Assembly (NCBI RefSeq): GCF_023923205.1
Contig: NZ_CP099490.1
Coordinates: 2,542,001 to 2,606,000 of the forward strand
DNA length: 64,000 bases
DNA from: Ornithinimicrobium cryptoxanthini
GTDB lineage: Bacteria > Actinomycetota > Actinomycetes > Actinomycetales > Dermatophilaceae
Reading direction: 5' to 3'
Translations under genes and position numbers: made by a program
In this document: piece by piece, positions 10,652 through 59,513 of the stretch
Numbering within the stretch: position 1 is the stretch's first letter
How the letters are laid out: each line of letters opens with the position of its first letter
The notes under the pieces: model-generated
Databases searched by the model: none
What the model saw: only the letters and a program-made list of their open reading frames with translations
What the model was told of the DNA's origin: nothing

Positions 10652-10655
10652 CAGG

Positions 10656-13236: not shown

Positions 13237-13237
13237 G

Positions 13238-13921: not shown

Positions 13922-13957
13922 GGCGAAGGCCCGGACCGGGCGGTCCGGGCCTTCGCC
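13922..13957. terminator. Bidirectional hairpin between convergent genes
   Basis: A perfect 16-bp stem (13922-13937 with 13942-13957) around a 4-base loop, in the 85-base gap between the convergent scoB and glycosyltransferase genes. No long T tract follows on either strand, so it may need help from Rho, as is common in high-GC actinobacteria. Confidence 0.8.
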
Positions 13958-13961
13958 ATGG

Positions 13962-29989: not shown

Positions 29990-30852
29990 CGCAGCACCCG
30001 GTGCTCGACGGGAAGCCGCCCGATCCGGACCATCGCCTGATAGGCCACGATCGACAGCACGCCGCCGATGATCAGGATGACCACACCGGTCGGCTCGCGG
30101 TAGGCCTGCAGAGCCGTGCCCCGGGTGGCCATCAGCAGCAGCACGATCCACGGCGCGCACATCGCCAGACGCGCGGCGTTGACTGTCCAGGACTGGCGTG
30201 CCTCCAGCTCCGCCCGGGAGCGCGCGTCCTCGCGCAGGAAGGTGGACAGCGTGCGCAGCACCTTGCCGAGGTCGCTGCCACCGACCTCACGGGCCAGGCG
30301 CAGAGCCTCCACCAACCGGTCGGCCACGGGATCTGCCATCCGCTCCTTCAACTGGTCGAGCGAGTCTGTGAACCTGCCACTGGCGCGGTAGTCGTGGCCG
30401 AAGGCGAGGAAGGCCTCGCGCAGCTCCTCCGGACCGCGGTCGCCGAGCTGGATGAGGGCCTCGGGCAGCGACAGTCCGGCGCGCACCCCGGACGAGATGT
30501 GGTCGACGGCATCCGGCCAGACCTCGCGAAGGCGGGAGCGGCGGCTCCTCGCCCGTGCCCTGACGACGGCCAGCGGCGCCCAGCCTGCCATCCCGGCAAA
30601 GGCGATGCTCACAGCCGGGACCCGCGTGACGGCGAGCCCGAGCACCGCCACGATGACGACCGCGATCGCGCAGACGGCCAGGAGCCCGGACCAGCGCAGC
30701 GAGCGCAGGCCCGCCAGTCGGATGTCGTCGTCGAGCTGCGCCAGGAGCGCGTGGTGTCGCGCCTTCCGCACGGGATCTGCGGCGGGCCAGAACGACCACC
30801 AGATGCACGCCAGACCCAGGCCAAGGACCAGGCCGAGAAACGACCCCGTCAT
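29986..30852 (-). CDS. tadB: TadB, type II secretion F-domain protein
   Basis: A 288-residue integral membrane protein. N-terminal helices ('FLGLVLGLGLACIWW', 'GLLAVCAIAVVIVAVLGL') precede the GspF domain 'VWPDAVDHISSGVRAGLSLP', 'FGHDYRASGRFTDSLDQLK' and 'VGGSDLGKVLRTLSTFLRED'. C-terminal helices follow. It overlaps tadA by four bases (ATGA) and tadC by four. Probably acts with TadC as the platform driven by the TadA ATPase. Confidence 0.9.
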   Translation of the reverse strand: MTGSFLGLVLGLGLACIWWSFWPAADPVRKARHHALLAQLDDDIRLAGLRSLRWSGLLAVCAIAVVIVAVLGLAVTRVPAVSIAFAGMAGWAPLAVVRARARSRRSRLREVWPDAVDHISSGVRAGLSLPEALIQLGDRGPEELREAFLAFGHDYRASGRFTDSLDQLKERMADPVADRLVEALRLAREVGGSDLGKVLRTLSTFLREDARSRAELEARQSWTVNAARLAMCAPWIVLLLMATRGTALQAYREPTGVVILIIGGVLSIVAYQAMVRIGRLPVEHRVLR

Positions 30853-31826
30853 CTGGTGCTCCCCGAGCCGAGAAGCTGTGCCAGATCGTGTCCGGCACGA
30901 GCAAACCGGTCCGCGTGCGGTGGGAAGCCTTCGCCACGCACCAGCTGGTCGTCACGCGTCAGGAAGATATCCGCGATCTCAACCACCTCGGCCTCGACCC
31001 GGCCCGGCAGAGCCACGATTTCCTGGACCCGCCGCCGTCCGTCCGCGTGGAGGGCCAGGTGGACGACGAGGTCGATCGAGCTCGCGACCGTGGGGACAAC
31101 GAATCCGCTGGCCACGTTGGTGCCAGCCAGCAGGGGAAGGGTGCACATCTTGGTGACCGCCTCGCGGGCGCTGTTGGCGTGAACGGTGCACATGCCAGGA
31201 AGTCCGCTGTTCAGTGCGATGAGCAGATCCAGACTCTCCTCCTGGCGGACCTCGCCGACCAGGATGCGGGAGGGGCGCATGCGCAGCGCCTCCTTGACAA
31301 GTCGTCGCAGTGGGACCTCTCCGGTGCCCTCGAGGCTGGCCTGCCGGCACTGCATCGCGGCCACGTCACGCAGCGGCACCTTGAGCTCGAAGACCTCCTC
31401 GCACGTCACCACCCGCTCGGTCGGTGGGATCGCCGCGGCCAGGCAGTTCAGGAGGGTGGTTTTGCCCGCCTGAGTCCCTCCCGCGACCAGGATGTTGAGA
31501 CCGCTCTCGACCGCGGCGGTCAGGAACGCAGCAGCTGACGCCGGGAGTGTCCCCAAGCGCACGAGGTCGCCCAGCTCATCCGCAGCGACCACGAACTTGC
31601 GGATGTTGACCGCCCAGTGACGCCGGGTGATGTCTGGGATGACGACGTGCAAGCGCGACCCGTCCGGCAGTGCCGCGTCCACAAAAGGGCTGCTTAAGTC
31701 CACCCTGCGGCCACTGGAACGCAGCATGCGCTCGACCAGGTCGCGCACCTGCTGCTCGGTCAGGATCGTCGGGGTCAGCTCGGGGCGACCGTGCCGTGCG
31801 ACAAAGACTTTGCCGGGGAGTATCAT
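30849..31826 (-). CDS. tadA: TadA/CpaF secretion ATPase, N-terminally truncated
   Basis: A 325-residue remainder of the Flp pilus motor ATPase. The ATPase core is intact: Walker A 'AGGTQAGKTTLLN', the Asp/Glu box 'VVTCEEVFELKV', Walker B 'RILVGEVRQEESLDLLIAL' and the His box 'GMCTVHANSARE'. It begins at 'GKVFVARHGRPELTP', which in full-length homologues lies roughly 100 or more residues in; the N-terminal domain is missing. The break coincides with an inverted repeat and a serine integrase gene. GGGAGAG precedes the ATG, so a shortened protein could still be made, but function is doubtful. Confidence 0.85.
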   Translation of the reverse strand: MILPGKVFVARHGRPELTPTILTEQQVRDLVERMLRSSGRRVDLSSPFVDAALPDGSRLHVVIPDITRRHWAVNIRKFVVAADELGDLVRLGTLPASAAAFLTAAVESGLNILVAGGTQAGKTTLLNCLAAAIPPTERVVTCEEVFELKVPLRDVAAMQCRQASLEGTGEVPLRRLVKEALRMRPSRILVGEVRQEESLDLLIALNSGLPGMCTVHANSAREAVTKMCTLPLLAGTNVASGFVVPTVASSIDLVVHLALHADGRRRVQEIVALPGRVEAEVVEIADIFLTRDDQLVRGEGFPPHADRFARAGHDLAQLLGSGSTR

Positions 31827-31858: not shown

Positions 31859-33265
31859 ATGACCGTGCCTGCCGGCATCTACCTCCGGATCTCCCGCGAC
31901 TCCGAAGGGCTCGGGCTCGGCGTGAAGCGACAACGGGTCGACTGCGAGAAGCTCGTCGCACGCATGGGGTGGGACCTCGCGCAGGTCTATGAGGACAACG
32001 ACGTCAGTGCCACCAGGAGCAAGGTCCGGCCGGCCTACACGCGGATGATGCAGGACGTGGAGCGGGGAGTGATCAAGGCGGTTGCGGTGTGGGACGTGGA
32101 CCGCCTCACCCGCACCCCACGTGAGCTCGAGGACGTCATCGACCACGCCGACCGCCTCGGGCTCAAGCTCGCATCAGTCGGTGGGGACATCGACCTGGCC
32201 ACCGAGCAGGGACGAATGATGGCCCGGATGAAGGGCACCGTGGCCCGGTATGAGGTCGAGCAGCAACGTCGGCGGCTGAAGGCGAAGCACCAAGAACTCG
32301 CCGCCAACGGCGCTCACATCGGCAAACGCCCGTTCGGGTGGGACTTCCGAGCTGATAGGACACTCACGATCAACCACGAGGAAGCAGCCGTGGTCCGAGA
32401 ATGCGTCGACCGCGTCCTCTCAGGCCAGGCCCTGTGGAAGATCAGCAACGACCTGAACAGCCGCGGCATCACCACCAGCAGCGGGCGTCAGTGGCAGACC
32501 ATCGTCCTACGGCAGATGCTGCTGCGCTGGCGCAACTGCGGCGTCCGCACCCACCTGGGCAAGGAGGTCGGGCCCGGGCAGTGGGACCCGATCATCGACA
32601 TGCCCACCCACGAGCGAGTCGTCGCCCTCCTGACCGACCCGGCACGCCGGACCAGCAATCGGGGCACCGAAGCCAAGTACCTCCTGACCTCCCTCGCCCA
32701 CTGCGGAGCATGCGGTAGATCGATGGTCGGCACCAACGAGTACAGCTACGTCCTGAGGAACGGTCGCACCCGGACTTACGCCCACTCCTACACCTGCCCA
32801 CACGCCGGGTGCATGAAGGTCCGGCGCCGCATGGCCGACGTCGACGACCTCGTCACCCGCGTCGTCCTCGGCGTGCTTGAGCGAGACGGCGTCCAGCTCC
32901 TCGGCGGCGACCCCGCCGCGGCCACCCATGCCTCAGACCGCATCGCAGCCCTGGAAGCCAAGCTTGCCCTCGCCGCTGACCAGTTCGCCGACGACACCAT
33001 CACCAGCGACCAGCTGCGCCGCGTCTCCGAACGCCTCAAGCCCCAACTCGCTCAGGAGCGCGCACGCCTGGCGGCCGCCCAGCCGAGCCCCGAGCTCGCG
33101 GGCTTCGCTGGCACCGGCGTCGCTGACGCCTGGGAGACCGCCGACGTGGAGACCCGCAAGCGCATCATCCGATTCCTGGCCATGCGCATCACCATCAACC
33201 CCATCGGCTCCGGCAACGGGAGCACCTTCGACCCCACCTCCGTGGCAATCGAGTGGCCCCCGTAG
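31859..33265 (+). CDS. Large serine recombinase/integrase
   Basis: A 468-residue site-specific recombinase. The N-terminal resolvase domain has 'GIYLRISRDSEGLGLGVKRQ' with the catalytic Ser near residue 12, and the Arg pair region 'AVAVWDVDRLTRTPRELEDV'. A recombinase domain follows ('GKRPFGWDF', 'ISNDLNSRGITTSSGRQW'), then a zinc ribbon ('LAHCGACGRSMVG', 'YTCPHAGCMKV') and a C-terminal coiled region. This is the usual architecture of phage and element integrases. GAAGGAG lies about eight bases before ATG 31859. Adjacent truncated tadA marks its probable target. Confidence 0.95.
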   Translation: MTVPAGIYLRISRDSEGLGLGVKRQRVDCEKLVARMGWDLAQVYEDNDVSATRSKVRPAYTRMMQDVERGVIKAVAVWDVDRLTRTPRELEDVIDHADRLGLKLASVGGDIDLATEQGRMMARMKGTVARYEVEQQRRRLKAKHQELAANGAHIGKRPFGWDFRADRTLTINHEEAAVVRECVDRVLSGQALWKISNDLNSRGITTSSGRQWQTIVLRQMLLRWRNCGVRTHLGKEVGPGQWDPIIDMPTHERVVALLTDPARRTSNRGTEAKYLLTSLAHCGACGRSMVGTNEYSYVLRNGRTRTYAHSYTCPHAGCMKVRRRMADVDDLVTRVVLGVLERDGVQLLGGDPAAATHASDRIAALEAKLALAADQFADDTITSDQLRRVSERLKPQLAQERARLAAAQPSPELAGFAGTGVADAWETADVETRKRIIRFLAMRITINPIGSGNGSTFDPTSVAIEWPP

Positions 33266-33514: not shown

Positions 33515-33976
33515 TCAACGCTCCGAGGGTCCCTCTGCTCGATCGCCGTCCATCCGCCATCTTGCGATGACTTCGCCTTCCACGCCGCCGTCCCGCCACT
33601 CAACTTCGCTACCTTGCGTGAGGATCGCCCAGGGGGCATCGCCGAGGTTCAGGGTTACAGACCCGTGGTCGCCGATGGCGACGGAGGCACAGCTAAAGCG
33701 TTCTGCAGTGTCGAATGGCACCGTCTCCTCACTCACTATCAGGAACACCTCGTTCGGCTGGGGGCATCTGGCGTGGCCATCGTCCCCCCTGACTTTCCAG
33801 GTCGCGTGGTAGTACCCCCACGAATCTAGGCGGATCTTGGTCGAGTCCAGCACGGTACGGGTTTCGTGAGTAGCAGCAGGTGTCGGCCCGGCGAGCGTCT
33901 CAACAGCCCAAGGAATGCCCAGGATGAGCGCGAAGAAGACGACTACGGGCGCGACCGTGTGCTTAGAGTTGGCCAT
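33515..33976 (-). CDS. Hypothetical membrane-anchored protein
   Basis: About 153 residues. After 'MANSKHT' comes one hydrophobic segment ('VAPVVVFFALILGIPWAV'), then an exported or periplasmic-side domain containing two cysteines ('HARCPQPNEVFLIV', 'RFSCASVAIGDHG'). No family recognised. The frame extends to ATG 34006, but ATG 33976 places the signal anchor at the N terminus. It lies downstream of the DUF499 gene with 54 bases between and may or may not share its transcript. Codon use is less GC-skewed than the core genes. Confidence 0.6.
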   Translation of the reverse strand: MANSKHTVAPVVVFFALILGIPWAVETLAGPTPAATHETRTVLDSTKIRLDSWGYYHATWKVRGDDGHARCPQPNEVFLIVSEETVPFDTAERFSCASVAIGDHGSVTLNLGDAPWAILTQGSEVEWRDGGVEGEVIARWRMDGDRAEGPSER

Positions 33977-34030: not shown

Positions 34031-37000
34031 TCAGCTCTCCTCGAAGCCCGACTGGTCGAACTTAAGGGTGTGTGCGTTCTCCGAGACGGTGCGGATCTTG
34101 TCGTCTGCGAAGCCAGTGGAGTTGGTGGCTTCGATCTCGATGCGGACGGTCAACTGGGTGCCATCGGCGGCCCGCAGGTTGGCGATAACTTCGTCGGCGA
34201 TGTTCTTGAAGTCTAGCGCGATCTTGTCGGAGCTGAGGGTTTTCACTCCGTAGAAGCGGGTCTTCGGCTTGGCGAAGTCGATGTCGCCCTTTGATGTGGA
34301 CGGGTCGTGAGATGTAGTTCCGCCGTGCTGCTCGACGACGGCCGCGGACACCTCTTCGGACGGCGCCTTTCGCTCGGACTCGGCCTCACGCTGATTCGTC
34401 GCGACATCGGGGCGCACGAGCAGAAGCGCGTCGGTCGCGACCGGTGCCGGGCCCTTGTCCTCCGGGGTCCACAGACCGATGTAGCGGCCGCTGGCTTGGT
34501 CGTACTCGGTGGCGAGTGCGAACGCGTCGGTCACCCAGATCATCGGCAGGTCGACGATGCCCTCGTTGAGAACCCTCCGGTCCCGCAGCCGCGGCATGTA
34601 CGGGTACTGGCAGTACAAGCCCCATAGGGCACCGAGCGCGACGTGGCCGTCCTTCCAGATCTGCGGCACCCGGTTGATCGCCAGCCGGATGGTTGCCGCG
34701 GCCTGTCGGGTCGAGAGGTCGCCGTCATTGCCCAGACGCCTCGACACCCGCTCTGCGAGCGACTGTGACTGACCTTCGACCTTGGTCTCTCTCACCAGGA
34801 ATGGGGAGCTCGGGTCCGGCTGTGTCGGGACGAGCGCCCAGGTAAAGCTCTGCAACAGACGCGCGGTGACGGTCTGGTCGGCCTGCGCCTGACGCTGCGC
34901 GGCCTGGTTCTTCTGGTTCTGGGTAAGGTCGAGATCGGCCTCGTTGGCGAGGACGTGACTCCAGCCGAGGTAGTCGCGAGTCGCGGTGTCCAGCTCCCCG
35001 AGTCTGGCCTCATCGGCGGCGAGGTAGACGACAGTGTTGCGGTTGGTCCGGTTGGCGCCGCCGCGCTGCTCGGTGGCGTTGTGCGCGAACGCCTTGGCCT
35101 CCGACTCGGTCTTGCCTTTGTGCGCCACCTTCGGGTGCAGGATCACCAGCCGCGCCTCGTCGATGTCAGGGATGTCGGCGTTCGACTCCGGACAGACATG
35201 GACGCCGGCGAAGTCACCGCGCGTGCGGCCCTGGCTCTGGAGACGTTTGATGATCTCAGCCCACACGTCCTCCTTGTGGAGGCGCTCGGCCTGATCCTTG
35301 GCGGTCCGTGTGATGTTGGGCTGTAGGTCATACCAATACTTGCCCGAGCCGGAGTAGAAGTACGTCGCCCTGTCGCCAAGCTGCGTCAGTGCGCTGTGAA
35401 AGTTGCCCGGCACGTCGCCGGGGACCGCAGTACCCAGGAACACGCGCTGGGTCCCGATGCCCTTGTGCGTAGAACCGGGCGCGATCGTCGGGGCAGCACC
35501 GAAGAACACCGTTCGCGCGAGTCGCTTGGTCAGAGCCCGCTGACCGAACAGCGGCTTCTCCTTGTCGATCCGACCGGGCTCGGAGTTGGGGCCGTCGACA
35601 TCGGCGTCGATGATCGTCTTCCACGAATCCTGCAGGTATTGCGTCAACTCCGCATTGACATTAGCGGTGGCGAGCGGGATCGAGCCAGGCATGATCAGCG
35701 GCGAAGCGTCCTCACCGGTCCAGAGCGCGTGGATAACGGTGCTCATCAGGCGCAGTACACCGCGGGTGCGCTGGAAGCGTTCAAGCCCTGACCACTCCTC
35801 GTAGAGGGTGTCGAACATCTCCGGATGGATCGGGTAGGTCCGCTTGATGCGGTCCTCATACGCCGCATCCCTAACCTCGCGCGGGAAGTCGTCAGTGTAC
35901 TTGCGATACATCTCGACATACGCCCTGGCCGTTGCTCCGATGGACGCCAAGCCTGCGGCGTCGGGCTGTTTGAACAGACGCTGCTTGACGATGTGGTAAG
36001 CCTCGTCGGAGGACGCCGGACGCCACTGCTCGGCGACGCGGCGCACCACGTTCTGGAGCCGCTTGAGCGCCTCAAGCCCGTGAGCCCCGCCGACCTCCTC
36101 GGCGTTACCGACTGCGATCTCCGCGTCGTCGCCACTCTCGGAGGCAGGGATGGAGATCGCCAGTAGAACCCCAGGAGTGCCCTTGCAGGCTTCGGTCAAC
36201 GATTGCGCGAAGGTGAACTGGTCATCAAAGGTGCCGCCGGCCAAATCGTCGCGCCCGACGAGGGATCGCGCGTACGCGACCCACTCGTCGATCAGGATCA
36301 CGGCCGGCGCGTACTTCCTCAGGAGCTCGTGAAGCGCATCCCCAGGGTGAGTCCGGTCACCGTCGGCCTTCGCGACGATCGCGTATGCCTCGACATCGCC
36401 GAGCTGCCAGGCGAGCTCCCCCCAAATCGTGTTCACGTGAGTGCCGTCGTCCTTCACCACGCCGGAAGGGCTGAAATGGTTGCCGACAATGGCGACGCGG
36501 TTGACCTTGGCTCCCTGGTAGCCGCTAGCGAGCAGCAGCTCCTGCGTCTCCTGCGGGTAGTCGCCCACCGGCAGACCGGCAGCTACATGCCACAGCGATA
36601 GCATGGAGTGGGTCTTGCCCCCACCGAAGTTCGTCTGGAGATTGATTACCGGCGACGCGTTGTCGTCACCCGCGAGCCGACGAACCGCACGGCCGATCAG
36701 ATCGCTCAGACCCGCGGTGAGGTACGTCCGCTTGAAAAACTCGACAGGGTCGGCGTAATCAGAGTCGACTTCCCCGCCCGTAGCGACCTTGTACAGATCC
36801 GCGGCGAACTCCGAGGCATGGAAGTTGCCGGTCGCGACATCCTCGTGCGGCTGTAGCACCTCCCGCCACGGCTTGAGCCCACCCACCGCCTGCGGGTTGT
36901 CAACCGCGGCCTTGAGAACCTTCTTGTCGTCACGGTCCGCGGTGACTCGCCGCAGATTCAGGCGGATCAACTTGACCTGTTCAGCTTCCGAGGGCTTCCC

Positions 37001-37387
37001 CAGCAACGTCATCAGTCGCTCTGCCGTGTCCAGCGTGCGATAGGCATCGTCGTCAGTGAAGGAGCCGTTGTGCGCCCAGGTGTTGCGGGCGGTCTTCAAC
37101 TCGGTGGCGAACGCCTCACCGACTCGGCCTAGAGTGTCGGAGAACGGGTACCAGCGTGGCTTCACGTTGGTGGTGATCGAGGACTCCGTCAGTATGCGGA
37201 GCTGGACCTGCGGGTCGAGCGGGTCGTACACCTTGCCCGCGTGGCCGTCCTTCGCCGCGACAAGCTTGACCCAGTTCGCTCCGGCAGACTGGTCGACGGC
37301 GCCGATCACGGACGAGATGTAGTCGTCGAGGGCCGGGGCGATGACCTCGAACAGCTTGCCGACGCGGTCACGATTGCTCACTGCCAT
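34031..37387 (-). CDS. DUF499 ATPase with N-terminal Swt1/HEPN-like domain
   Basis: A 1,118-residue predicted defence ATPase. Residues 5-130 resemble the Swt1-type HEPN domain, with an R-x4-H motif at 101-106 ('RNTWAH') of the kind used by HEPN RNases. The AAA+-like region has Walker A 'TNFGGGKTH' near 252-260 and Walker B 'AVILIDEWV' near 362-370, followed by 'LLAISIPASESGDD'. The long C-terminal half is DUF499-type. Its ATG lies one base after the methyltransferase stop. DUF499 proteins (COG1483, from memory) recur next to DUF1156 methylases in defence islands. Confidence 0.85.
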   Translation of the reverse strand: MAVSNRDRVGKLFEVIAPALDDYISSVIGAVDQSAGANWVKLVAAKDGHAGKVYDPLDPQVQLRILTESSITTNVKPRWYPFSDTLGRVGEAFATELKTARNTWAHNGSFTDDDAYRTLDTAERLMTLLGKPSEAEQVKLIRLNLRRVTADRDDKKVLKAAVDNPQAVGGLKPWREVLQPHEDVATGNFHASEFAADLYKVATGGEVDSDYADPVEFFKRTYLTAGLSDLIGRAVRRLAGDDNASPVINLQTNFGGGKTHSMLSLWHVAAGLPVGDYPQETQELLLASGYQGAKVNRVAIVGNHFSPSGVVKDDGTHVNTIWGELAWQLGDVEAYAIVAKADGDRTHPGDALHELLRKYAPAVILIDEWVAYARSLVGRDDLAGGTFDDQFTFAQSLTEACKGTPGVLLAISIPASESGDDAEIAVGNAEEVGGAHGLEALKRLQNVVRRVAEQWRPASSDEAYHIVKQRLFKQPDAAGLASIGATARAYVEMYRKYTDDFPREVRDAAYEDRIKRTYPIHPEMFDTLYEEWSGLERFQRTRGVLRLMSTVIHALWTGEDASPLIMPGSIPLATANVNAELTQYLQDSWKTIIDADVDGPNSEPGRIDKEKPLFGQRALTKRLARTVFFGAAPTIAPGSTHKGIGTQRVFLGTAVPGDVPGNFHSALTQLGDRATYFYSGSGKYWYDLQPNITRTAKDQAERLHKEDVWAEIIKRLQSQGRTRGDFAGVHVCPESNADIPDIDEARLVILHPKVAHKGKTESEAKAFAHNATEQRGGANRTNRNTVVYLAADEARLGELDTATRDYLGWSHVLANEADLDLTQNQKNQAAQRQAQADQTVTARLLQSFTWALVPTQPDPSSPFLVRETKVEGQSQSLAERVSRRLGNDGDLSTRQAAATIRLAINRVPQIWKDGHVALGALWGLYCQYPYMPRLRDRRVLNEGIVDLPMIWVTDAFALATEYDQASGRYIGLWTPEDKGPAPVATDALLLVRPDVATNQREAESERKAPSEEVSAAVVEQHGGTTSHDPSTSKGDIDFAKPKTRFYGVKTLSSDKIALDFKNIADEVIANLRAADGTQLTVRIEIEATNSTGFADDKIRTVSENAHTLKFDQSGFEES

Positions 37388-37388
37388 G

Positions 37389-40142
37389 TCAGTCGTCCTC
37401 GTCAAACGCCAAGGCGCCCTGTGTCTGGGTGGGCTTCTTCGCCGAGCGTGCCACCTCAAGGATCTCGGGCCAGCTCGTTACTAGGTTGTTGAAGGAGAGC
37501 CCGTCCTGGGTCCAGCCGTTGCCTTCGGCAACGCGGAAGAGTAAGTGCGCCAACTCCTTCACAAGGTCAGCGTCCACGGTGCCATCCGGGCGGCTCAGCG
37601 AGCCCTGGAGAAAGTCACCAGCAGGGGCAATGCCGTCTCGTTCCAAGACTTTGATCAGGTGATGCAGCGCTTCCCAATTGCTTGTGTGCGTGTCTTTGAG
37701 GGCGTCATAGTCCCACGGCAGGTCGGCAGGCTTGATGAGCTGGACGTTGCCAGCCCGGCTCGTCAGAATCTTGTCCCGCTCCATGATGTCAACGCTCGTG
37801 TTGCGCGCCCGAGCGAGATTGTCAGCGTCACCAAACTTGCCGACACCATACCCATGCCCGCGGTACCACGCAATCGCGAAGCGTGACGTCGGGTCGAAGT
37901 CGCCCTCCTGTTCGTTCAGCACCTGATCGAGGATCTCGTTGATGCGCGCGAGTGCGCTTCGAACCGACATCTTCGAGCCATCCGCCTCAAGCACCCCAGA
38001 GTGGCGGCTGAACACTGCCATACCAGGGCCGATGGCCGCTTGCGGAAGGTCAACAGGCGCGACCTGGCCCTGCTGCAATCGCCGCAGCGCACCTGGCAGT
38101 TCAGCCCCGAGATCGGCGATGAACCCGCGCCGATCCGTGGTCCCGGCCGACTCGGGTCGGGGCCTGAGGCTCAGCACGATGGACGAAGCGAGCGCGTTTG
38201 ATCCAATGTCACGCATCCGTCCAGCGCTTTCGGTTCGGACCGGCCACGTAGATGTGATCTCCCAGCCTCCACTGATCATGCCTTCGAGGAGGGTCTCCCA
38301 TCCGCTGGATGCCTCTCCCTCTGCACCCCGGTCGACCTGGCGAAATGCGTAGTAAACCGTGATAGGCAGCGAAGGATCGGCGGAGTCGCGTGCGCACTCA
38401 AAGACGCGTCGGAATCCGTCCTCAAAAAAGGTTCTTGCGCCGTCACGGCCGTGCCGTTGCATATCTGCGACGAGCTCTTCCGACTTCGGCACCAGCAGCG
38501 TCGATGTTAAGTCGGGATGAACAGTTCTTAAAGCGCGACGTAGCCATACGTAGAAGAAGTCAGACAGGTCAGCGTAGGGCACATTGTCGTAGTACGGGGG
38601 GTCAGTACTGATGAGTGCGCCCGCTGGCACGCCGTCTTGCGCTGGTGCTTGGTACACCGAGGCAGTCCCACGAGCGGGGAGCCGCTCAAGCGCGTTAGCA
38701 ACAGCCGCTGTCATCTTCACCAAACTACCGGAACTGGCCGCGAACGGATTGCCCTCTGCGAAGTCCCATGCCATGGACAAGGCCTGGCGGGAGAATACGT
38801 TCCGCAAGATTTCCATTTGAGGATTACTCGCCCATGTCGTGAGATTTGATTGGTAATCGGTCAACCGGCTGACAACAAATGCCAAGTAGAGGGCTAGGGC
38901 GTCGGCGTATTCCGCGTCAGCGCCGTCCGCGATTGCACGCGCTCTGGCTTCGTTCACGAGATCGCAGAACGTCGTAAGCGCAACAAGCTGGCGATTGGTG
39001 AAAAGCGCTGACGTCGTCATCATCCCATACAACGGCGCGCCCATATACTGGGAGTGGGTCGACAACTCTGCATCCGGTACATCTTCAGGTCGTGGCACGC
39101 GCGCCGCCTCAGAATGCGAGTCACTGGGGTCGCAGTAGACACGCCGACGATTACCCTCCGCAACAACGGCCATCAGCGAAGCACCGAGCCGTCCGGCCAG
39201 ACCCTCAGTCTTGATGTGGTTGCGAGTAATCGCCGCTTTACAGGAGAGGCACGCGCCACCCTGCCGACCAGCCATAGTCGGGGGAATTGACGGCCCACCA
39301 GCTCCTGTGCCGATGGAAAATGTGACGCGGAGTCCAGATGGATCTGCAGGGTCCGTGGTCACTCTCGGGACCACGAAGGTCTCCTTTCCCTTCTTCTTCC
39401 CAAGCCACCAAGTCTTCACGAGAGGAGCCTCGATGCGGCACGCTGGGTTCGGGCACCTGACCGTCCGTGCCCAGATCCAAGCGATTACTGTCGCCTCTCG
39501 TCCGTCGTTAAGATTTGCTTTAGGGTAGAGGAAACCGATTCGCTGCTGAGCCTGCTCGCGAAGCCACGCGCCGTACGCTCGGACGTCGGCTGCAAGACCC
39601 TCCGAACCATTCCACTCACGAATTTCCGAATCAGCAATCCCGGGGAACACTGGCGCGCGGCCGTTGAACTTAGGCGGAATCTCAATTAGGGCCTTGTTAA
39701 TCAGGACCGATACAGGATTAAGGTCTGACGCGCTAGCCTCAAGCCCGAGTCTCTGTGCCTCCAATGGAATCGTTCCGCCGCCCGCAAAAGGGTCATGAAT
39801 GGTCGGCGGCGAACCGTTCGTGGACTTCAGAATCTCTGCCTTCGCCGCGGCATATAGTTGCTGGTCACCGATGTTCTCCCAGATGACAAGTCGTTCGATG
39901 ATGCCGTGGAGACGCTCTCGCTCCTTGCGCTGCAGCTCCTCGGTGGGGAATTCTTCTGGACGCGCGCTCGGATCGTCTACGAGTTGGGCGAAGATCACCG
40001 CGCGCGCCGTCGCGAGCGGCCGCCGAGCCCACCACAAGTGCAGCGTGGAGGGATGGCCGTGGCGGATCGACTTCTCGCGGCCCGACTCCCTATTCATCGC
40101 CTCGAGCGGCAACGCCACCTCGATCAACTTGCGCTTCTGCAT
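37389..40142 (-). CDS. DUF1156 domain DNA methyltransferase with zinc ribbon
   Basis: A 917-residue adenine-type DNA methyltransferase. Residues 5-60 are the DUF1156 region ('RKLIEVALPLEAMN', 'HPSTLHLWWARRPL'). The SAM-binding motif 'DPFAGGGTIPLEAQRLG' is at 117-133 and the catalytic 'STDPPYYDN' at 512-520. Between them 'CPNPAC' near 230 and 'CLSC' near 298 form a split zinc ribbon. This is the COG1743 type from memory. Base composition is noticeably less GC-rich than the core genome, especially near its 5' end, suggesting transfer. It sits between the DUF1643-like gene and the DUF499 ATPase gene. Confidence 0.92.
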   Translation of the reverse strand: MQKRKLIEVALPLEAMNRESGREKSIRHGHPSTLHLWWARRPLATARAVIFAQLVDDPSARPEEFPTEELQRKERERLHGIIERLVIWENIGDQQLYAAAKAEILKSTNGSPPTIHDPFAGGGTIPLEAQRLGLEASASDLNPVSVLINKALIEIPPKFNGRAPVFPGIADSEIREWNGSEGLAADVRAYGAWLREQAQQRIGFLYPKANLNDGREATVIAWIWARTVRCPNPACRIEAPLVKTWWLGKKKGKETFVVPRVTTDPADPSGLRVTFSIGTGAGGPSIPPTMAGRQGGACLSCKAAITRNHIKTEGLAGRLGASLMAVVAEGNRRRVYCDPSDSHSEAARVPRPEDVPDAELSTHSQYMGAPLYGMMTTSALFTNRQLVALTTFCDLVNEARARAIADGADAEYADALALYLAFVVSRLTDYQSNLTTWASNPQMEILRNVFSRQALSMAWDFAEGNPFAASSGSLVKMTAAVANALERLPARGTASVYQAPAQDGVPAGALISTDPPYYDNVPYADLSDFFYVWLRRALRTVHPDLTSTLLVPKSEELVADMQRHGRDGARTFFEDGFRRVFECARDSADPSLPITVYYAFRQVDRGAEGEASSGWETLLEGMISGGWEITSTWPVRTESAGRMRDIGSNALASSIVLSLRPRPESAGTTDRRGFIADLGAELPGALRRLQQGQVAPVDLPQAAIGPGMAVFSRHSGVLEADGSKMSVRSALARINEILDQVLNEQEGDFDPTSRFAIAWYRGHGYGVGKFGDADNLARARNTSVDIMERDKILTSRAGNVQLIKPADLPWDYDALKDTHTSNWEALHHLIKVLERDGIAPAGDFLQGSLSRPDGTVDADLVKELAHLLFRVAEGNGWTQDGLSFNNLVTSWPEILEVARSAKKPTQTQGALAFDEDD

Positions 40143-40210
40143 TACGACGACCCCTCTGCCCGTTCCCAGACGTACAGCAGCGCAGATGCACCGCTACCTC
40201 AAGGTCCAAC

Positions 40211-40705
40211 CTAGCCTCCTCCACAGACAGACTCCGGTTGTACCGCTGCGAGGCTCAGCCGAAGCGCATCAGTGAAGGGCAGATCGGGGTGAGCGCGGTG
40301 CGTCCAGCGTTGCCAGCGTGACGGGTGACGCGGCCCGTCTCCGACGACCCATACGGGTCGGGACAGTACATCGATGCGCTTTCGCAGCCAGACGACCTGA
40401 TCGCAAAAGTGAAGCCGTGCCGGGCCAGACGGCGGCGTCGCGCCATACGCCAGCAGCACACCGTCGGCCGTAGCAAGTGCAGTTGCAAGGGGCTCTCTGG
40501 CGGCCACCCAGCCATTCTCGCTGGCTCCCAGCCTGTCAATCGCGGCGGTCGACTGCGAGGGAAAAGCGAAGAGATTCGTCACTACGAACTCGCCAAAGCC
40601 CAACAGATCGGCCGCTACCGCAACGCGATTCAACGTCCGCTTCCCGCCGCTCAGCGGAGGATTGGACAGGACGGCGACCAACGTCAGTCTGCAAGCGCTC
40701 CCCAT
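40211..40705 (-). CDS. DUF1643-like protein
   Basis: A 164-residue protein. 'LVAVLSNPPLSGGKRTLNR' followed by 'FGEFVVTNLFAFPS' and 'ADGVLLAYG' matches the DUF1643 pattern ('LNPS...T..R', 'VVNLFA', 'AWG'), a family found on plasmids and phages with no proven activity. The second half ('PVWVVGDGPRHPSRW') fits the family's nucleotide-binding-like end. ATG 40705 overlaps the helicase stop as TGATG, so it is coupled to the helicase; this fixes the start although the frame is open to 40732. Confidence 0.65.
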   Translation of the reverse strand: MGSACRLTLVAVLSNPPLSGGKRTLNRVAVAADLLGFGEFVVTNLFAFPSQSTAAIDRLGASENGWVAAREPLATALATADGVLLAYGATPPSGPARLHFCDQVVWLRKRIDVLSRPVWVVGDGPRHPSRWQRWTHRAHPDLPFTDALRLSLAAVQPESVCGGG

Positions 40706-43700
40706 CAGAACGGCGCCGAGCCCTTGGACCATGTCCTCGCCCAGTCGCCCCGGACGCCGGTGGCGTCGAAGTCACCGAGGTCGGTGTTGGCGAAGGGGTT
40801 GTTGAGGTAGCGGACTTCGTCATGCTGTGGGCCGCGTGGATCGACGCGGACCAAGGCCAGGCGGAAGCGCGGGACGGCATTCTTGCCGGTCATCACCTCG
40901 TTGTGGGTGACGAAGAAGTCGGTGGCTCCCTCGATGCGGGCTTTGACCTCGATGCGGTAGGTGTCGCCCTTGGCGTCGGTGGAGAGGATGTCGAAGCCGG
41001 GGTTGTTGAAGGCCTGTTCGACGGGCTTGCGGCCGAGTTCTCGCTCCCGTGTCAGGACGAGGTCGACGCCGCGGCGCTCGACTTCCTTGGTTTCCTTGGC
41101 GTGGATCGGAGCGGTCGCGGCCAGGTCATTCTCCAGAATCCGGACCGGGAGCACGAGTGCGGCAGTCACGATCCGGGGTGGCTTGATCGACATGAGTTGC
41201 TGCTGGTCGAGCAGTTCGAGACGTTTGCGGAGACGGACATCGAGTTCGACGGCCTTGCGGTTGAGGCTTTCCGAAGTCTCCTTGGGCTTGTCGCCGGCCT
41301 GCTCCTTCTCCGACGCGATCGCGGCATCGAGCAGGAGTCGGTCGCGTTCACCTTCGAGGCGCTTGGTGACGAGGTCGCGGGCCTTGCTCAGCTCGGCGCG
41401 GCGTCGCGGCTGGACCTCGGCGAGGTACTCCGGCAGCTGATTGGCGATGATCCAGCTCGTTGCCTTGTCCTCGGCGTCTGCCAGCCACGGAAGCGCACGT
41501 GCAGCTCTGGTGGCCGGGCTGTTTGGTGCGGCGACGCAGTCGAGGTACGGCGCGGGGCCGGCCGGGGTGGCGGTGCCGTGGCTGTCGACGAATGCGTAGC
41601 CAAAGCGTCGTGACACGGATTCTCCGGTCGCGTCCGCGACCTCCTCCACCACGCCGACCAGGAGGTGTGGCTCCTCTAGGGTCGAGGACACGAGGACGGT
41701 TCCTCGGTTGAGGGTGCCGCCGAATTGGCGCACCGTCTCGTCCATGACGGCGTCGTGGAGGGGGTGACCGGGAGCGAGCAGGTCGGCTCGTCCGAGGCCT
41801 TCGCCGTGGACCTTGCCGAGTTCGAAGGTCACGCGGTCGTACTTGGTGGCGATCGGTCCCTTGCGTGTGGCACGGATCTGTTGTGGCACGTTAGCGATTT
41901 CGTAGCGGCCGTGCTCGCGCTTGACGATGCGGCCGCCGAGTCGGGTGAACGCTGCTTTGAACGCCAGCTCGATGTAGTGCGGTTGGAGCCGCCGTGCGCG
42001 GGCTTCGTCCATTGCAGCGCGGAGCGCTTGAAGGTCGGCCTCAGCGAGGTTCTCTGATGCGAGGGCGCGTTCCTCGAGGAGGTCCTTGAGTCCCGCACCG
42101 ACGGAGGCGTCGATGACCTGGTGCATCTTCGCTTTCACGTCTGGGCGTTCGCCGTACTGGATGGCGTCGAGTAGGAGGTTGCGCAGCGGGGTTTCGGTGA
42201 AGGCTTCGCCGAGGACGTCGAAGACCTTGCCGCCGTAGGTCTGGCGCATCTGGTCGAGCTTTTCCAGGAGGCGGGTGAAGACCTCACCCTCGCGGGTGTT
42301 GGAGGCGACGAGGTTCCACAGGCGGCAGACCTCTTCCTGACCGATGCGGTGGATGCGGCCGAAGCGCTGCTCGATGCGGTTGGGGTTCCATGGCAGGTCG
42401 TAGTTGACCATCAGGTGCGCGGCCTGAAGGTTGAGTCCCTCGCCGGCGGCGTCGGTGGCCAGCAGGATCTGGACGTCGCGATTCTTGGTGAACTCCTCAG
42501 TGATCAAACGACGCTCACCACGCCGGACACCGCCGTGGATCGCCTTGACAGAGTCCGGCTTGCCGAGCAGGGAACCGATCTTGGCCTGGAGGTAGTCCAG
42601 GGTGTCGCGGTGCTCGGTAAAGATGATGAACTTCCGCGGCCACCCTTCACCGTCCGTGGTCAGGTGGTTGTCCTGAAGGATCGTGGACAGCTCGATCCAC
42701 TTGCGGTCCGTGCCGGCCTCGCGGACCTTCCTTGCGGTCTCGATGAGGTCGGCCAGTTCGATGAGTTCGGTGTTGAGCTCCGCCACCGTCTGCGCGGCGG
42801 TGGCGGCGTCGAGGAGTTCCTCCTCCATCTCCTCGATCTCTTCGGCGTTGTACTCGTCCTCGTCGATCTCGGACAGGTCGATGCCCGGGTCGGCGTCCGT
42901 GTAAGTGCCGTTGAGGATCTCGGTCTTCTTGCGCTCCAGGCGCTCGCTGCGGCGCACGAGGCTCTTGTAGATCGCCTCTGGGCTCGACGCCAGACGGCGC
43001 TGCAGGACGGTGAGGGCGAAGCCAACGGTGTTCTTGCGCTTACCGCCCAACTTCTCGGCGCGGTTCATCCCCTCGCGGACGTAGTGGGTGACGTCCTCAT
43101 AGAGGTCCTGCTCCACCGCGGTCAGCTCGTAGGGCACGGTCTCGGCGATGCGCTCGGGGAAGAGCTTCTTGCCCTCGAAGGTGAGTAGGTCCTCCTTGAC
43201 CATGCGACGCATGACCCCAGAAACGTCGACCGACTTCTTCTGCTTGCCCTCGAACCGGTCGCGGTCGAGCAGTGTGAGGAAGAGCTGGAAGTCCTCCTCC
43301 TTGCCCGAGTGCGGCGTCGCGGTCATCAGCAGCAGGTGACGGGTGACCAGGCCGAGAAGCTCACCGAGCAGGAACCGCTTGGTCTTCTCCAGCTTGCCGC
43401 CGAAGTAGTGCGCGCCCATGCGGTGCGCCTCGTCGACGATGATCAGGTCCCACTCGGTCTCTCTGAGCTGCGCTTGGAGTACCTCGTTGCGGGAGAGCTG
43501 ATCCATGCGGGCGATCAGGAGCGGGTTGGTTTCGAAGACGTTGAGATTGATGTTGGAGTCGATCAACTGGTTGGTCAGCAGGTCGAAACGAAGGCCGAAC
43601 TTGAAGAACAGCTCGTCCTGCCACTGCTCCACCAGACCGCCGGGGGCGACGATGAGGCACTGCTTCACGTCGTCGCGCAGCAACAGCTCCTTGATGTAGA

Positions 43701-44130
43701 GCCCGGCCATGATCGTCTTACCCGCGCCCGGGTCGTCTGCCAACAAGAAGCGCAGCGGCGTGCGCGGCAAGAGCTCGCCGTAAACAGCGCGGATCTGATG
43801 TGGCAGCGGCTGCACGTCACTCGTCGCCACCGCGAGCATCGGGTCAAACAGTCCCGCCAGCGTGATCCGCTGCGCCTCTGCCACCAGCTTGAAGTCACTG
43901 GCGTTCCCGTCGAAGGGTCGACCGCCGGCCCGCGCAATCGACAGGCTGCCCTCGTCCTTGCGGAACACCACCTGCTGGCCGAGACCGCCAGCGGCGTTCT
44001 TGTAGGTCAGCTCCACCGCGTCGGTGCCGTGCCACTGCGTCGCGATGACAGTAGTGACTTCGGCTGGGATGAGTCCCTCGATCCTCAGCCCCGGCTTGAG
44101 TGCTTCAAGCTGCACGTCTGAACTCCTCAT
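40705..44130 (-). CDS. SNF2-type helicase with C-terminal DUF3883 domain
   Basis: A 1,141-residue superfamily 2 translocase. Residues 90-650 form the helicase: Walker A 'DDPGAGKTIMAGL' near 132-144, 'IVDEAHRMG' (DEAH, 233-236), 'LLLMTATPHSGK', and helicase-C motifs 'LLATDAAGEGLNLQAAH' and 'IEQRFGRIHRIGQ'. An acidic, Glu-rich insertion lies near residues 430-470. The C terminus carries DUF3883 ('FDILSTD', then 'YRIEVKAR'), with the D...ExK arrangement of restriction-endonuclease-like folds. It leads the defence operon. Related to DrmD-type helicases of DISARM by architecture. ATG 44130 chosen as the start of conserved sequence. Confidence 0.9.
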   Translation of the reverse strand: MRSSDVQLEALKPGLRIEGLIPAEVTTVIATQWHGTDAVELTYKNAAGGLGQQVVFRKDEGSLSIARAGGRPFDGNASDFKLVAEAQRITLAGLFDPMLAVATSDVQPLPHQIRAVYGELLPRTPLRFLLADDPGAGKTIMAGLYIKELLLRDDVKQCLIVAPGGLVEQWQDELFFKFGLRFDLLTNQLIDSNINLNVFETNPLLIARMDQLSRNEVLQAQLRETEWDLIIVDEAHRMGAHYFGGKLEKTKRFLLGELLGLVTRHLLLMTATPHSGKEEDFQLFLTLLDRDRFEGKQKKSVDVSGVMRRMVKEDLLTFEGKKLFPERIAETVPYELTAVEQDLYEDVTHYVREGMNRAEKLGGKRKNTVGFALTVLQRRLASSPEAIYKSLVRRSERLERKKTEILNGTYTDADPGIDLSEIDEDEYNAEEIEEMEEELLDAATAAQTVAELNTELIELADLIETARKVREAGTDRKWIELSTILQDNHLTTDGEGWPRKFIIFTEHRDTLDYLQAKIGSLLGKPDSVKAIHGGVRRGERRLITEEFTKNRDVQILLATDAAGEGLNLQAAHLMVNYDLPWNPNRIEQRFGRIHRIGQEEVCRLWNLVASNTREGEVFTRLLEKLDQMRQTYGGKVFDVLGEAFTETPLRNLLLDAIQYGERPDVKAKMHQVIDASVGAGLKDLLEERALASENLAEADLQALRAAMDEARARRLQPHYIELAFKAAFTRLGGRIVKREHGRYEIANVPQQIRATRKGPIATKYDRVTFELGKVHGEGLGRADLLAPGHPLHDAVMDETVRQFGGTLNRGTVLVSSTLEEPHLLVGVVEEVADATGESVSRRFGYAFVDSHGTATPAGPAPYLDCVAAPNSPATRAARALPWLADAEDKATSWIIANQLPEYLAEVQPRRRAELSKARDLVTKRLEGERDRLLLDAAIASEKEQAGDKPKETSESLNRKAVELDVRLRKRLELLDQQQLMSIKPPRIVTAALVLPVRILENDLAATAPIHAKETKEVERRGVDLVLTRERELGRKPVEQAFNNPGFDILSTDAKGDTYRIEVKARIEGATDFFVTHNEVMTGKNAVPRFRLALVRVDPRGPQHDEVRYLNNPFANTDLGDFDATGVRGDWARTWSKGSAPF

Positions 44131-49938: not shown

Positions 49939-50892
49939 ATGGCGCTTGATTCTGTCCGTCCTGACGGCGTCACCGCAAGCAGCCAGGACCAGCAAGGCCC
50001 AAAGACCGCGTTCGGCAGCTGGGCCTTCGCGTTTGGGCCATTCGCGTCAGACCCGTGGTCCTTCCAACGGGTCTGTCAGTACGTGGCCGAGGCGGGGTAC
50101 GACGGGATCGAGATCAACGGCTTCCGGCCCCACCCGCACCAGGACGACTTCAACTCCGACGAGAAGACACGCAGGCTACGCGCGCAGATCGACTCGTTAG
50201 GCCTGGGCATCTCCGCGTTCGCCCCAGATATGACCTCCGCTCCGCCCACCACGAGCTCCGAGGCGGTGTACCTACGATTGGTCGACGGCGCCCGCGCCTT
50301 CTGCGAGCGGATGGGCATCACCACACTCCGTGTCGACTCGGTCTCACCACCGGTCGTGCTCGACAATGACGATTACGAGGCCCGCTTCGCGCGCATGGCT
50401 GCCAACTTCACCGCAGCCGCAAAGCGGCTCGCTCGGTCTGGGGTGCAGCTGGTTTGGGAGTTCGAGCCCGGCTTCTGGTTGAACAGCCCGAGTGAGGTAG
50501 TTCGTCTGCTCAAGGCGGTGGAGGGCGACAACTTCGGCGTGCTGTTCGACACCAGCCACGCGCTCACTAGCGCCCGCGGTAAGCGTCAGACGCCACCGGT
50601 CGAGCTGTTGGAGGGTGGGGCGGTGGAGTATGCGCGGCTACTCAAGCCGTGGGTGCGGCACCTACACCTCATCGACTCGGTGGGCGTGCTGCACGACGAC
50701 GAGACCAGCGAGCACCTACCGTTCGGCACTGGCGAGGTGGACTTCGACGCCGTTATGGACGAACTGGGCGCCACCGCGACCGGCCTCGATTGGTGGACCG
50801 TGGACTACTGCTTCTGGCCCGACACCGAACGCGACGGTGTCGCGGGCGCCCAGTTCGTGCGCGACCTCGCGGCGAGGCATCGGCGTGCGTGA
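49939..50892 (+). CDS. Sugar phosphate isomerase/epimerase family, TIM barrel (1)
   Basis: A 317-residue AP-endonuclease-2-like TIM barrel, first gene of the sugar operon. Family features are 'VAEAGYDGIEINGF' near residue 55, 'QLVWEFEPGFW' with a metal-ligand Glu, 'FGVLFDTSHALTSA' with the ligand Asp, and 'VRHLHLIDSVG' with the ligand His. The reaction (epimerisation, isomerisation or dehydration of a keto sugar) cannot be read from sequence. Start fixed by GAGGAG seven bases upstream. The next gene overlaps it by eight bases. Confidence 0.88.
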   Translation: MALDSVRPDGVTASSQDQQGPKTAFGSWAFAFGPFASDPWSFQRVCQYVAEAGYDGIEINGFRPHPHQDDFNSDEKTRRLRAQIDSLGLGISAFAPDMTSAPPTTSSEAVYLRLVDGARAFCERMGITTLRVDSVSPPVVLDNDDYEARFARMAANFTAAAKRLARSGVQLVWEFEPGFWLNSPSEVVRLLKAVEGDNFGVLFDTSHALTSARGKRQTPPVELLEGGAVEYARLLKPWVRHLHLIDSVGVLHDDETSEHLPFGTGEVDFDAVMDELGATATGLDWWTVDYCFWPDTERDGVAGAQFVRDLAARHRRA

Positions 50893-51670
50893 CGTGGTCA
50901 CCACCGACGGCACCCGGATCGCTTGGGAGGAGCAGGGCGCCGGAAGGACGCTGTTGCTCATCATGGGCGTCGGCGCCGACCACACCGTGTGGGCGCAACA
51001 CGTCGCTCACCTAAAGCGCTCGTTCCGCTGCGTCCTGCTCGATAACCGCGGCACCGGCGCAAGCGACGCGCCGGCCGGGCCGTATAGCACCGCGCAGATG
51101 GCGGACGACGCGGCTGCCGTACTGCGCGCCGTCGGTAGCGAGCCGGCGAAAGTGATTGGCATCTCTATGGGCGGCGCCATCGCGCAGCAGTTGGCGCTGC
51201 GGCACCGGGAGCTGGTCGACCGGATGGTGCTCACGGCGAGCTGGGCGCGCATGAACCCGATGAGCGAGGACGTGTTCTCGGAGTTGCGTGACCTGCGGTT
51301 TCTGCTTTCCCCCGGGGCTTTTCAGCGTCGCCTGCAGCTGCTCATATGGAGCCCGCCCGCCTACGCGGAGCGCTCCGGGAAGCTGCGTGCCGAGCGGGAT
51401 GAGCTTGTGGACGAGCCGATGACGGCCTCCGCGTTCGCCGCCCAGGTCGACGCGTGCGTGGACCACGACGTGTGCGCCGCGCTCCCTGGCCTCGACGTGC
51501 CCGTTCTGGTGACCTGCGGGGAGCACGACGTGTTCACACCCATCGCGGCCGGGCTCGAACTCGCCGGCCTCATCACCGGTTCGGCCGTGGAGCGTTTCGC
51601 GGGCGGCCACGCCCACCACTGGGAAGAACTGAACCGATACAACCTATTGTGCGAGGAGTTCCTCCAATGA
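50885..51670 (+). CDS. Alpha/beta hydrolase
   Basis: A 261-residue alpha/beta hydrolase fold enzyme. The oxyanion region is 'LLIMGVGADHTVWAQHV', the nucleophile elbow 'VIGISMGGAIAQQLAL' (Ser in G-x-S-x-G near residue 97), the acid region 'VLVTCGEHDVFTPIA' and the catalytic His 'FAGGHAHHWEE'. In this operon it may hydrolyse a lactone or ester of the sugar, an inference from context. GTG 50885 overlaps the previous gene by eight bases; the ATG of the next gene overlaps its stop (ATGA). Confidence 0.88.
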   Translation: MRDVVTTDGTRIAWEEQGAGRTLLLIMGVGADHTVWAQHVAHLKRSFRCVLLDNRGTGASDAPAGPYSTAQMADDAAAVLRAVGSEPAKVIGISMGGAIAQQLALRHRELVDRMVLTASWARMNPMSEDVFSELRDLRFLLSPGAFQRRLQLLIWSPPAYAERSGKLRAERDELVDEPMTASAFAAQVDACVDHDVCAALPGLDVPVLVTCGEHDVFTPIAAGLELAGLITGSAVERFAGGHAHHWEELNRYNLLCEEFLQ

Positions 51671-52485
51671 CGATCGACTTCGCGTCGCAGACCTACAGCT
51701 GGCAAATGAGCGGCGCCTGGACCGGCCGTCTCGGAGAGATCGCCCAGGTGGTTGCATCGAGCGGCTTCTCGGGCATCGAGTTCGAGGTGGTCATGTCTGA
51801 TGGCTACGAGACCGCCGACCAGGTCGGCTTGCTGCTCGAAACTAACGGTTTGAAGCTCGCCGCCCTCACGCTCGTGCTCCCGTGGCGCGACGCGCAGGAA
51901 AAGGAAGCTGAGCGAGTCGAGGCGGACCGCGTCATCGAGGTGGTGCAGCACTTCCCCCGCTCAAAGCTCGTGCTGGTGCAGGTGCCGTTTGACGAGCCGC
52001 CCGCCGATCGCGAGACTGCCCAGAGTCACCTGCTCGGGTGTCTGGCCGGGATCACGGAGCGGGCGGTCGCGGGCGGTGTTTCGCCGACATTCCATCCGAA
52101 CTCGCCACGGGGCTCCATCGTGCGCACGCGGGAAGATTACGACCGGGTGATCCCGCGATTGCCCAAGGGCTTGGGCTGGACGCCGGACACCGGCCACCTA
52201 GCAGCCGGCGGCATGGACCCCGTCGAAATGATCCGCCTCCATCGCGAAAAGGTGGATCACATCCACCTGAAGGATGCGGACGCCGCCGGCAAATGGGTGC
52301 AGAACGGCTCCGGTGCGATCGACATGGCCGGGGCGGTAGCACTGCTGGTTGGCACCGGCTACAGGGGTTGGGTTGTCGTGGAAGACGAGTCGCCCGAGGC
52401 CGAGCGAGACCCCAACGCGGCGGCCGCGGCGAACGGCATGTTCGTGCGCGACGTGCTCGGCCCGCTGACCGACCAGCTCGCTTGA
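51667..52485 (+). CDS. Sugar phosphate isomerase/epimerase family, TIM barrel (2)
   Basis: A 272-residue TIM barrel related to inosose dehydratase and epimerase-like proteins. 'VVASSGFSGIEFEVVMSDGY' is at the N terminus, then 'SPTFHPNSPRGS', 'LGWTPDTGHLAAGGMDP' (ligand Asp), 'KVDHIHLKDADAAG' (ligand His) and 'WVVVEDESPEAE' (ligand Glu). The first metal Glu of the family is replaced in 'PTFHPN', a variation also known in IolE-like members. Coupled to the hydrolase gene by ATGA overlap. Confidence 0.88.
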   Translation: MTIDFASQTYSWQMSGAWTGRLGEIAQVVASSGFSGIEFEVVMSDGYETADQVGLLLETNGLKLAALTLVLPWRDAQEKEAERVEADRVIEVVQHFPRSKLVLVQVPFDEPPADRETAQSHLLGCLAGITERAVAGGVSPTFHPNSPRGSIVRTREDYDRVIPRLPKGLGWTPDTGHLAAGGMDPVEMIRLHREKVDHIHLKDADAAGKWVQNGSGAIDMAGAVALLVGTGYRGWVVVEDESPEAERDPNAAAAANGMFVRDVLGPLTDQLA

Positions 52486-52536
52486 CGGCGCTCACCTTCT
52501 TCACCGGTCTCACGACCATCACTGAAAGGAACGCTC

Positions 52537-55930: not shown

Positions 55931-55987
55931 CCGCCAATCCTGGCGACCAGGACCAAACCAAGCACTAATCGAAAGGGTGTCTCCACC

Positions 55988-56995: not shown

Positions 56996-57078
56996 TCCAA
57001 AATCCGGTGGGTGCAGGTGCCCTGACGCGGCTGCGCCCACCACGGAACTTGCCACGCGTTGAACGGAGAGAGGACACC

Positions 57079-58128: not shown

Positions 58129-58130
58129 TC

Positions 58131-59129: not shown

Positions 59130-59513
59130 CCGTGGCAGGCAGCGCTTCGAACTCGCGCCGAGTGGCTGTCCACAGGGGTTGTCATTGTAACGAAGGTGCG
59201 ATTTTCACGTGAGCTAACGGCGACGACGCAGCGGAGGCCCTGGCCCGCTTTGGCCGCGCGCCGTGGTCTGCGGCTGCGATTCTAGGTGGTTGAGACCCTG
59301 GAAACTTGCCCTCTCTTAAGACGTGCGAGGCTCGAGGCACAGGATGTGAACACGCTGCCCCGCCTCAGATGCGAAGCCGAGACGGCGGCAATTGCCAGAG
59401 TTACAACACCTCTAGGTGACTGGTCGCAGATGACGGAGTGGACGTGGCAGCCCTCGACGGCGCCGCTCCTCTCGCGACCGATGCGCTGACTCTCAAAGCA
59501 GAACGGGAATGTC
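59130..59513. other. Intergenic interval in sugar operon
   Basis: About 384 bases without a recognised gene. It separates the transport/isomerase half of the operon from the kinase-epimerase pair and may hold a second promoter. GC content dips around 59150-59215, but no clear -10/-35 pair was found. Confidence 0.4.

Follow-up and report, generated by a model that had tools for sequence, protein, structure and literature searches.

A predicted Hma defense system with an embedded DUF1643-like gene on an integrated element of Ornithinimicrobium cryptoxanthini

Hma was named in the 2021 PADLOC paper from 1,638 instances (Payne 2021, PMC8565338). A 2026 paper classes these systems as Type-1 BREX-related (BR), describes a form in which HEPN is fused to the DUF499 ATPase, and proposes that the methylase marks self, the helicase-nuclease restricts, and HEPN is suicidal; it also cites an experiment confirming phage defense by HmaA (PMC12839542). 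Here, we describe a locus of this kind in a stretch of 64,000 nucleotides from Ornithinimicrobium cryptoxanthini (contig NZ_CP099490.1, positions 2,542,001 to 2,606,000), which we call the window and number from its first letter. Four genes encode a helicase, a small DUF1643-like protein, a DUF1156 methyltransferase, and a DUF499 ATPase. We read the locus as a complete Hma system on an integrated element together with one embedded accessory defense gene, and we put the probability of this reading at roughly 0.68.

Judged by their sequences, the core three genes are a complete Hma system, alias a Type-1 BR system with a HEPN-fused DUF499 ATPase. A PADLOC run, which the preliminary description of this DNA had proposed, returned adjacent matches to the HmaA (1290.5 bits), HmaB (1011.9 bits), and HmaC (871.3 bits) models, each covered over nearly its full length (the HmaC form scanned comprises 1117 amino acids, to 37384). 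The hmaA gene (40705–44130, minus strand), which starts at either ATG 44130 or GTG 44115, encodes an SNF2/DEAH helicase with a C-terminal NOV_C (DUF3883) domain that carries a PD-(D/E)XK-like motif; its Pfam matches are Helicase_C, SNF2-rel_dom, and NOV_C (62.1 bits). The hmaB gene (37389–40142, minus strand) encodes an N6-adenine-type methyltransferase with a DUF1156 match of 102.5 bits. The product of hmaC (34031–37387, minus strand) is a Swt1-type HEPN domain (HEPN_Swt1, 90.4 bits) fused to an AAA+ ATPase of the DUF499 family (98.2 bits). What we take to be the catalytic motifs of the respective families are intact in all three proteins: DEAH and GFDI...IEVK in HmaA, DPFAGGG and DPPYY in HmaB, and RNTWAH (the HEPN RxxxxH), FGGGKTH, and IDEW in HmaC. 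From its motif, the C-terminal domain of HmaA is a putative PD-(D/E)XK nuclease. Since all three genes fit the definitions of Hma and Type-1 BR systems, the core is already known. The preliminary description had presented the locus as a candidate defense operon; its view of a restriction-like defense holds, but the status of a candidate gives way to that of a named system.

The new part of the locus is the DUF1643-like gene (40211–40705, minus strand; 164 amino acids), although a 2024 preprint by Payne on Hma-embedded candidates may list it. Open reading frames, Pfam and PADLOC matches, and motifs bear out the four leftward genes of the preliminary description on the minus strand, and the junctions that it claimed can be located precisely. 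The stop codon of hmaA overlaps the start of the DUF1643-like gene in a TGATG at 40707–40703, and a single base, 37388, separates the TGA of the methylase from the ATG of the ATPase.

The neighborhood survey that the preliminary description had called for reveals that the four-gene set recurs in other genomes, which argues that the arrangement did not arise by chance. We scanned genome contigs (84,980 species by the description of the collection) for the pattern RHPSRWQR, an approach to which only members with the exact pattern are visible. Of the 39 loci recovered, L070 was dropped (a 32-residue match with no tblastn match), leaving 38; L068 and L069, which are partial matches, were counted here but excluded from the tree of the small protein, and loci without defense neighbors also stay counted. 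In 13 of the 38 other loci, all actinobacterial, the gene sits, in the same orientation, between hmaA and hmaB, as it does in the window, and this slot is shared by loci of at least six families. In 11 of the 14 embedded cases (window included), the hmaA stop codon and the ATG of the DUF1643-like gene overlap; the exceptions are L042, which has TAGTG, and L041 and L043, which have no such start. The HEPN pattern missed its motif in three embedded loci (L035, L036, and L037), and the pattern for methylase motif I missed L035.

In the HmaA tree, one strongly supported clade of 21 rows contains the 14 embedded cases; over all 28 rows, the embedded label requires four changes. The seven clade members without the gene retain every motif that was searched. 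In four of them (L089, L099, L101, and L104), TGATG leads straight from hmaA into hmaB; the gap between hmaA and hmaB is ~108 bases in L095 and L103 and ~1.1 kb in L086. The hmaB of L101 and L104 is spread over ~4.4 kb and looks interrupted. Because the same TGATG couples hmaA to hmaB in four of seven relatives that lack it, the DUF1643-like gene is a clean insert. The suggestion in the preliminary description that it may be an unusual extra component is borne out. Resolution is poor in the tree of the small protein, on which the embedded label needs two changes.

Hma operons contain other embedded defense genes as well. GmrSD-type restriction genes lie between hmaB and hmaC in L041 (13287–15128) and L043 (13443–15119); genes of 607 amino acids in L089 and L101 look similar. 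In L033, the slot between hmaA and hmaB holds a PDC-S53 candidate defense protein (11574–14282; 1316.6 bits), which lies downstream of the DUF1643-like gene. The same slot in L090 is occupied by a SMODS-type nucleotidyltransferase (10612–11679; 27 bits, cut-off 26.5), possibly a CBASS-like insert. These other defense genes inside hma operons fit guilt-by-embedding, the approach by which Hma-embedded candidates were proposed (Payne 2024 preprint, as cited in PMC12255303 and PMC12988326).

The small protein belongs at the margin of a known family. It scores 21.1–21.2 bits against Pfam DUF1643 (PF07799), below the gathering cut-off of 22.5, a value passed by three of the seven relatives scanned (range of the members scanned, 19.7–26.1 bits). 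Comparison with canonical DUF1643 by hhalign gave 94.67% (E 6.2e-8, 124 columns) with deeper alignments; an earlier comparison with shallower alignments had given only 7.3%. A protein search identified 211 proteins at E ≤ 1e-3 among 8000 scored candidates. Residues N15-P16, T24, N44, G88, G122, P125, and H127-P128 are invariant or near-invariant over 30 aligned sequences, and within its own subfamily a stretch like GDGPRHPSRWQRWT is kept in 65 aligned sequences. In the literature collection searched, which comprises main texts, 13 papers mention DUF1643, and none joins DUF1643, Hma, and "defense".

Outside the Hma slot, the gene is found near other defense genes. In three of the 38 loci (L049, L051, and L062), hma genes lie within 10 kb of it. 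In 15 others, the nearest match to Pbe, PglZ, Zac, type III, ApeA, or methylase lies at a distance of ≤3.2 kb. Neighbors in six of these 15 (L045, L046, L048, L054, L058, and L067) were annotated by PADLOC or Pfam. The remaining nine were assigned by tblastn, at 63–99% identity in L053, L055, L061, and L064 and, more weakly, at 24–37% identity in L047, L050, L057, L066, and L068. Because related Hma operons lack it and because it occurs near other DNA-modification defenses, the DUF1643-like protein seems, from these sequence comparisons, dispensable to Hma.

Further observations weigh for or against an accessory defense gene. No defense gene was detected with the queries tested in seven of the 38 loci (L040, L056, L059, L060, L063, L065, and L069). 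Of 20 neighbor proteins searched with PADLOC, 11 had a match at 1e-10; the nine without one include those scanned from L040, L047, L049, and L059, and one scanned neighbor in L040 is a glycoside hydrolase. In favor of a defense association, the same queries matched none of 64 control loci (270 kb in total), although most of these have far shorter flanks than the test loci. An HmaB match is present in 44 of 394 genomes of the class, and 12 match the profile of the DUF1643-like protein. Co-occurrence also speaks for the accessory reading: strong HmaB matches (E ≤ 1e-100) occur in five of 10 carriers compared with 24 of 393 genomes (hypergeometric p = 1.1e-4; the window genome and G337, a weak match at E 3.6e-4 that also has HmaB, are left out), but all five co-occurring genomes come from a single family, three of them from the same genus, so that the p-value overstates independence. 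The gene lies between hmaA and hmaB in four of the five and downstream of hmaC in G316; four of the five also gave loci of the pattern scan, so that the two counts overlap. A canonical DUF1643 gene was scored as essential in most conditions in Thioclava, in a study whose authors call the role of DUF1643 unknown (PMC9226611). This result counts against a defense role, since a defense gene should not look essential. Finally, distances of the small protein track those of its Hma partners beyond what hmaA accounts for (partial Mantel, 0.44 for hmaB, permutation p 0.006; 0.31 for hmaC, p 0.034), which could mean that it is a working part of Hma.

The last point bears on an alternative in which this Hma subtype requires the DUF1643-like protein, as a subunit or a helper in specificity, for HmaB to methylate or restrict, and in which relatives have lost or replaced it. 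In addition to the correlation with hmaB, the shared slot in at least six families and the frequent stop-start overlap would be expected of such a subunit. Third-position GC in the window is also lower in hmaB and the DUF1643-like gene (0.68 and 0.69) than in hmaA and hmaC (0.85 and 0.83). However, seven of the 21 HmaA proteins of the tight clade come from operons that lack the gene and keep the searched motifs, two of them with the interrupted-looking hmaB, and 22 of the 38 loci contain no hma gene in the stretch examined (in L046, only a distant helicase match). On balance, we consider a subunit unlikely.

A second alternative holds that the gene belongs to mobile elements or nucleotide metabolism and shares islands with defense systems while playing no role in defense. 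The seven loci devoid of a detected defense neighbor and the essentiality in Thioclava point in this direction, as does the distribution of DUF1643 at large. In a phage collection, canonical DUF1643 occurs in 37 records, with a DNA ligase or endonuclease V gene only a few genes away in some; the window protein itself had no match there, and a plasmid collection yielded five records at 45–47% identity to it. Staphylococcal SCC elements carry DUF1643 in the vicinity of a uracil-DNA glycosylase inhibitor gene (PMC12540322, PMC10821479), and an ISL3-family insertion sequence of Pseudomonas aeruginosa has it as cargo (PMC13231603). The position of one SCC copy just before a type I restriction-modification set (PMC10821479) speaks, by contrast, for a link with defense. 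Such a passenger would not be expected to settle repeatedly between hmaA and hmaB with a stop-start overlap, and the rarity of the gene in the class (12 of 394 genomes) also speaks against it; we judge this alternative improbable, even more so than a subunit. The same rarity disfavors a housekeeping role. The DISARM reading, to which the preliminary description had compared the operon, is refuted on the features tested and has next to no probability: the SNF2 helicase is indeed related to DISARM DrmD (410.8 bits in PADLOC), but the HmaA model scores three times as high, the NCBIfam DISARM_DrmD cut-off of 610 is missed at 366.7 bits, and the nearest and sole match in the genome to MZB (PF09369; presumably DUF1998, DrmB-type) lies outside the operon, ~2.2 Mb away at C1:380960.

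We return to the reading of an embedded accessory defense gene and ask what its product might do. The pattern NP ... N-L-F ... G ... HPS resembles motifs of the uracil-DNA glycosylase (UDG) superfamily, and profile comparison hints weakly at such a relation. A combined DUF1643 profile aligned to Mug with a score of 27.9 over 135 columns, at a probability of only 12%. The best of 31 unrelated slices reached only 18.3 and the best of 40 column shuffles 23.0; true superfamily pairs gave 35.3 (Mug-UDGa), 30.9 (Mug-UdgB), and 20.7 (Mug-Ung). Against UDGa, UdgB, and Ung, the combined profile is unremarkable. With Mug, the Hma-type subfamily by itself reaches 18.6, which falls within its nulls, and the match between canonical DUF1643 and Mug covers only 19 columns. 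The Pfam UDG model matched none of the DUF1643-like proteins scanned. Plain hmmsearch placed a decoy at the top for each of the three profiles; for the combined profile, Mug proteins ranked shortly after it. A sequence search of the PDB with the protein and two alignments returned no credible match and no DUF1643 chain, the one match being at E 1.8.

Genomic context near UDG-related genes is suggestive. On plasmid pASPHE301 (L192), a UDG-family gene (7068–7616; 23.2 bits, below the cut-off of 24.3) is followed by two listed genes, a DUF1643 gene, and two methylases. The UDG inhibitor gene close to DUF1643 in SCC elements (PMC12540322, PMC10821479) fits the same context. Brig1 and Brig3 are anti-phage DNA glycosylases of the UDG superfamily, and Brig1 homologues are mostly actinobacterial and often lie near BREX/Pgl genes (PMC11078745, PMC13160076). 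It is tempting to speculate that the DUF1643-like protein is a UDG-fold base-excision effector, Brig-like in role, that operates inside methylation-based restriction operons. Phages whose modified bases block the methylase-nuclease arm would then lose those bases, and DUF1643 as a whole, including the phage and SCC copies, would constitute an unrecognized branch of the superfamily. This proposal is tentative, and we regard it as doubtful.

The operon resides at the left end of an integrated element. The integrase noted as its neighbor in the preliminary description is a large serine recombinase (31859–33265, plus strand) with Pfam matches to Resolvase and Recombinase; its match to Zn_ribbon_recom (25.1 bits) falls slightly short of the cut-off of 25.3. 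Beyond the recombinase lies the C-terminal part of tadA (30849–31826, minus strand), which encodes 325 amino acids compared with 412 in the relative L207. Synteny with L207 ends inside tadA at 31817, and the missing N-terminal part (95 amino acids) resumes ~55 kb to the right at genome position 2,628,958 (L220); these two observations indicate an element of ~55 kb that splits tadA. A Mug protein from the same genus shares 99% identity with one assigned to Serinicoccus hydrothermalis, which points to this part of the actinomycetes. The element spans 31827–64000 of the window and continues to approximately genome position 2628958, with the recombinase and Hma at its left end. Comparison of 120- and 180-base stretches at the element ends revealed no direct repeat of at least 7 bases that could mark att sites. 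An open reading frame of ~153 amino acids (33515–33976, minus strand) lies between the recombinase and hmaC; its 163-amino-acid form had no Pfam match. Farther into the element, translations read by eye suggest that a run of plus-strand genes (49939–61936) is a set for sugar catabolism and ABC transport.

From the observed gene content, motifs, recurrence, slot, and stop-start overlap, we infer every activity of the system. The mechanism proposed for the core follows that in PMC12839542 and draws on the protein families: HmaB would methylate adenines at its site in host DNA, the DUF499 ATPase of HmaC would assemble on and sense unmethylated DNA, and HmaA would translocate, allowing its C-terminal nuclease to cut. 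As a last resort, the HEPN domain of HmaC may cut RNA. The stop-start overlap probably couples translation of the DUF1643-like protein to that of HmaA, and the protein most likely works semi-independently, as an accessory that is directed at DNA and would cover phages missed by the host system. The interest of the locus lies in this embedded gene, a small protein that recurs at the stop-start coupling point of Hma and also near Pbe, PglZ-type, Zac, and type III genes. If the protein were a glycosylase-like effector, base excision would be joined to methylation-based restriction in one operon, and a first function would be assigned to DUF1643, a family that extends to phages and staphylococcal SCC elements.

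In comparison with known systems, the small protein shares with canonical DUF1643 (PF07799) a pattern of N-P, T, N, G, G, and H-P that extends over the full domain, whereas the Hma-type proteins form their own subfamily with a conserved RHPSRWQRWT-like stretch. With Brig1 and Brig3 (PMC11078745, PMC13160076), it would have in common a place in defense islands and possibly the UDG superfamily; this likeness is one of role and context. It resembles the Hma-embedded candidates (Payne 2024 preprint, as cited in PMC12255303 and PMC12988326) in being inserted inside an hma operon but differs from those in PADLOC-DB 2.0.0, none of whose families, HEC and PDC models included, match it at E ≤ 1e-3. The operon has the HEPN-fused DUF499 ATPase, the DUF1156 N6-methylase, and the helicase with a putative C-terminal restriction endonuclease domain of Type-1 BR systems; the main text of the paper that describes them, to which this comparison was confined, does not mention DUF1643 (PMC12839542). 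With Hma as named in 2021 (PMC8565338), the window shares hmaA, hmaB, and hmaC, and to these it adds a DUF1643-like gene between hmaA and hmaB.

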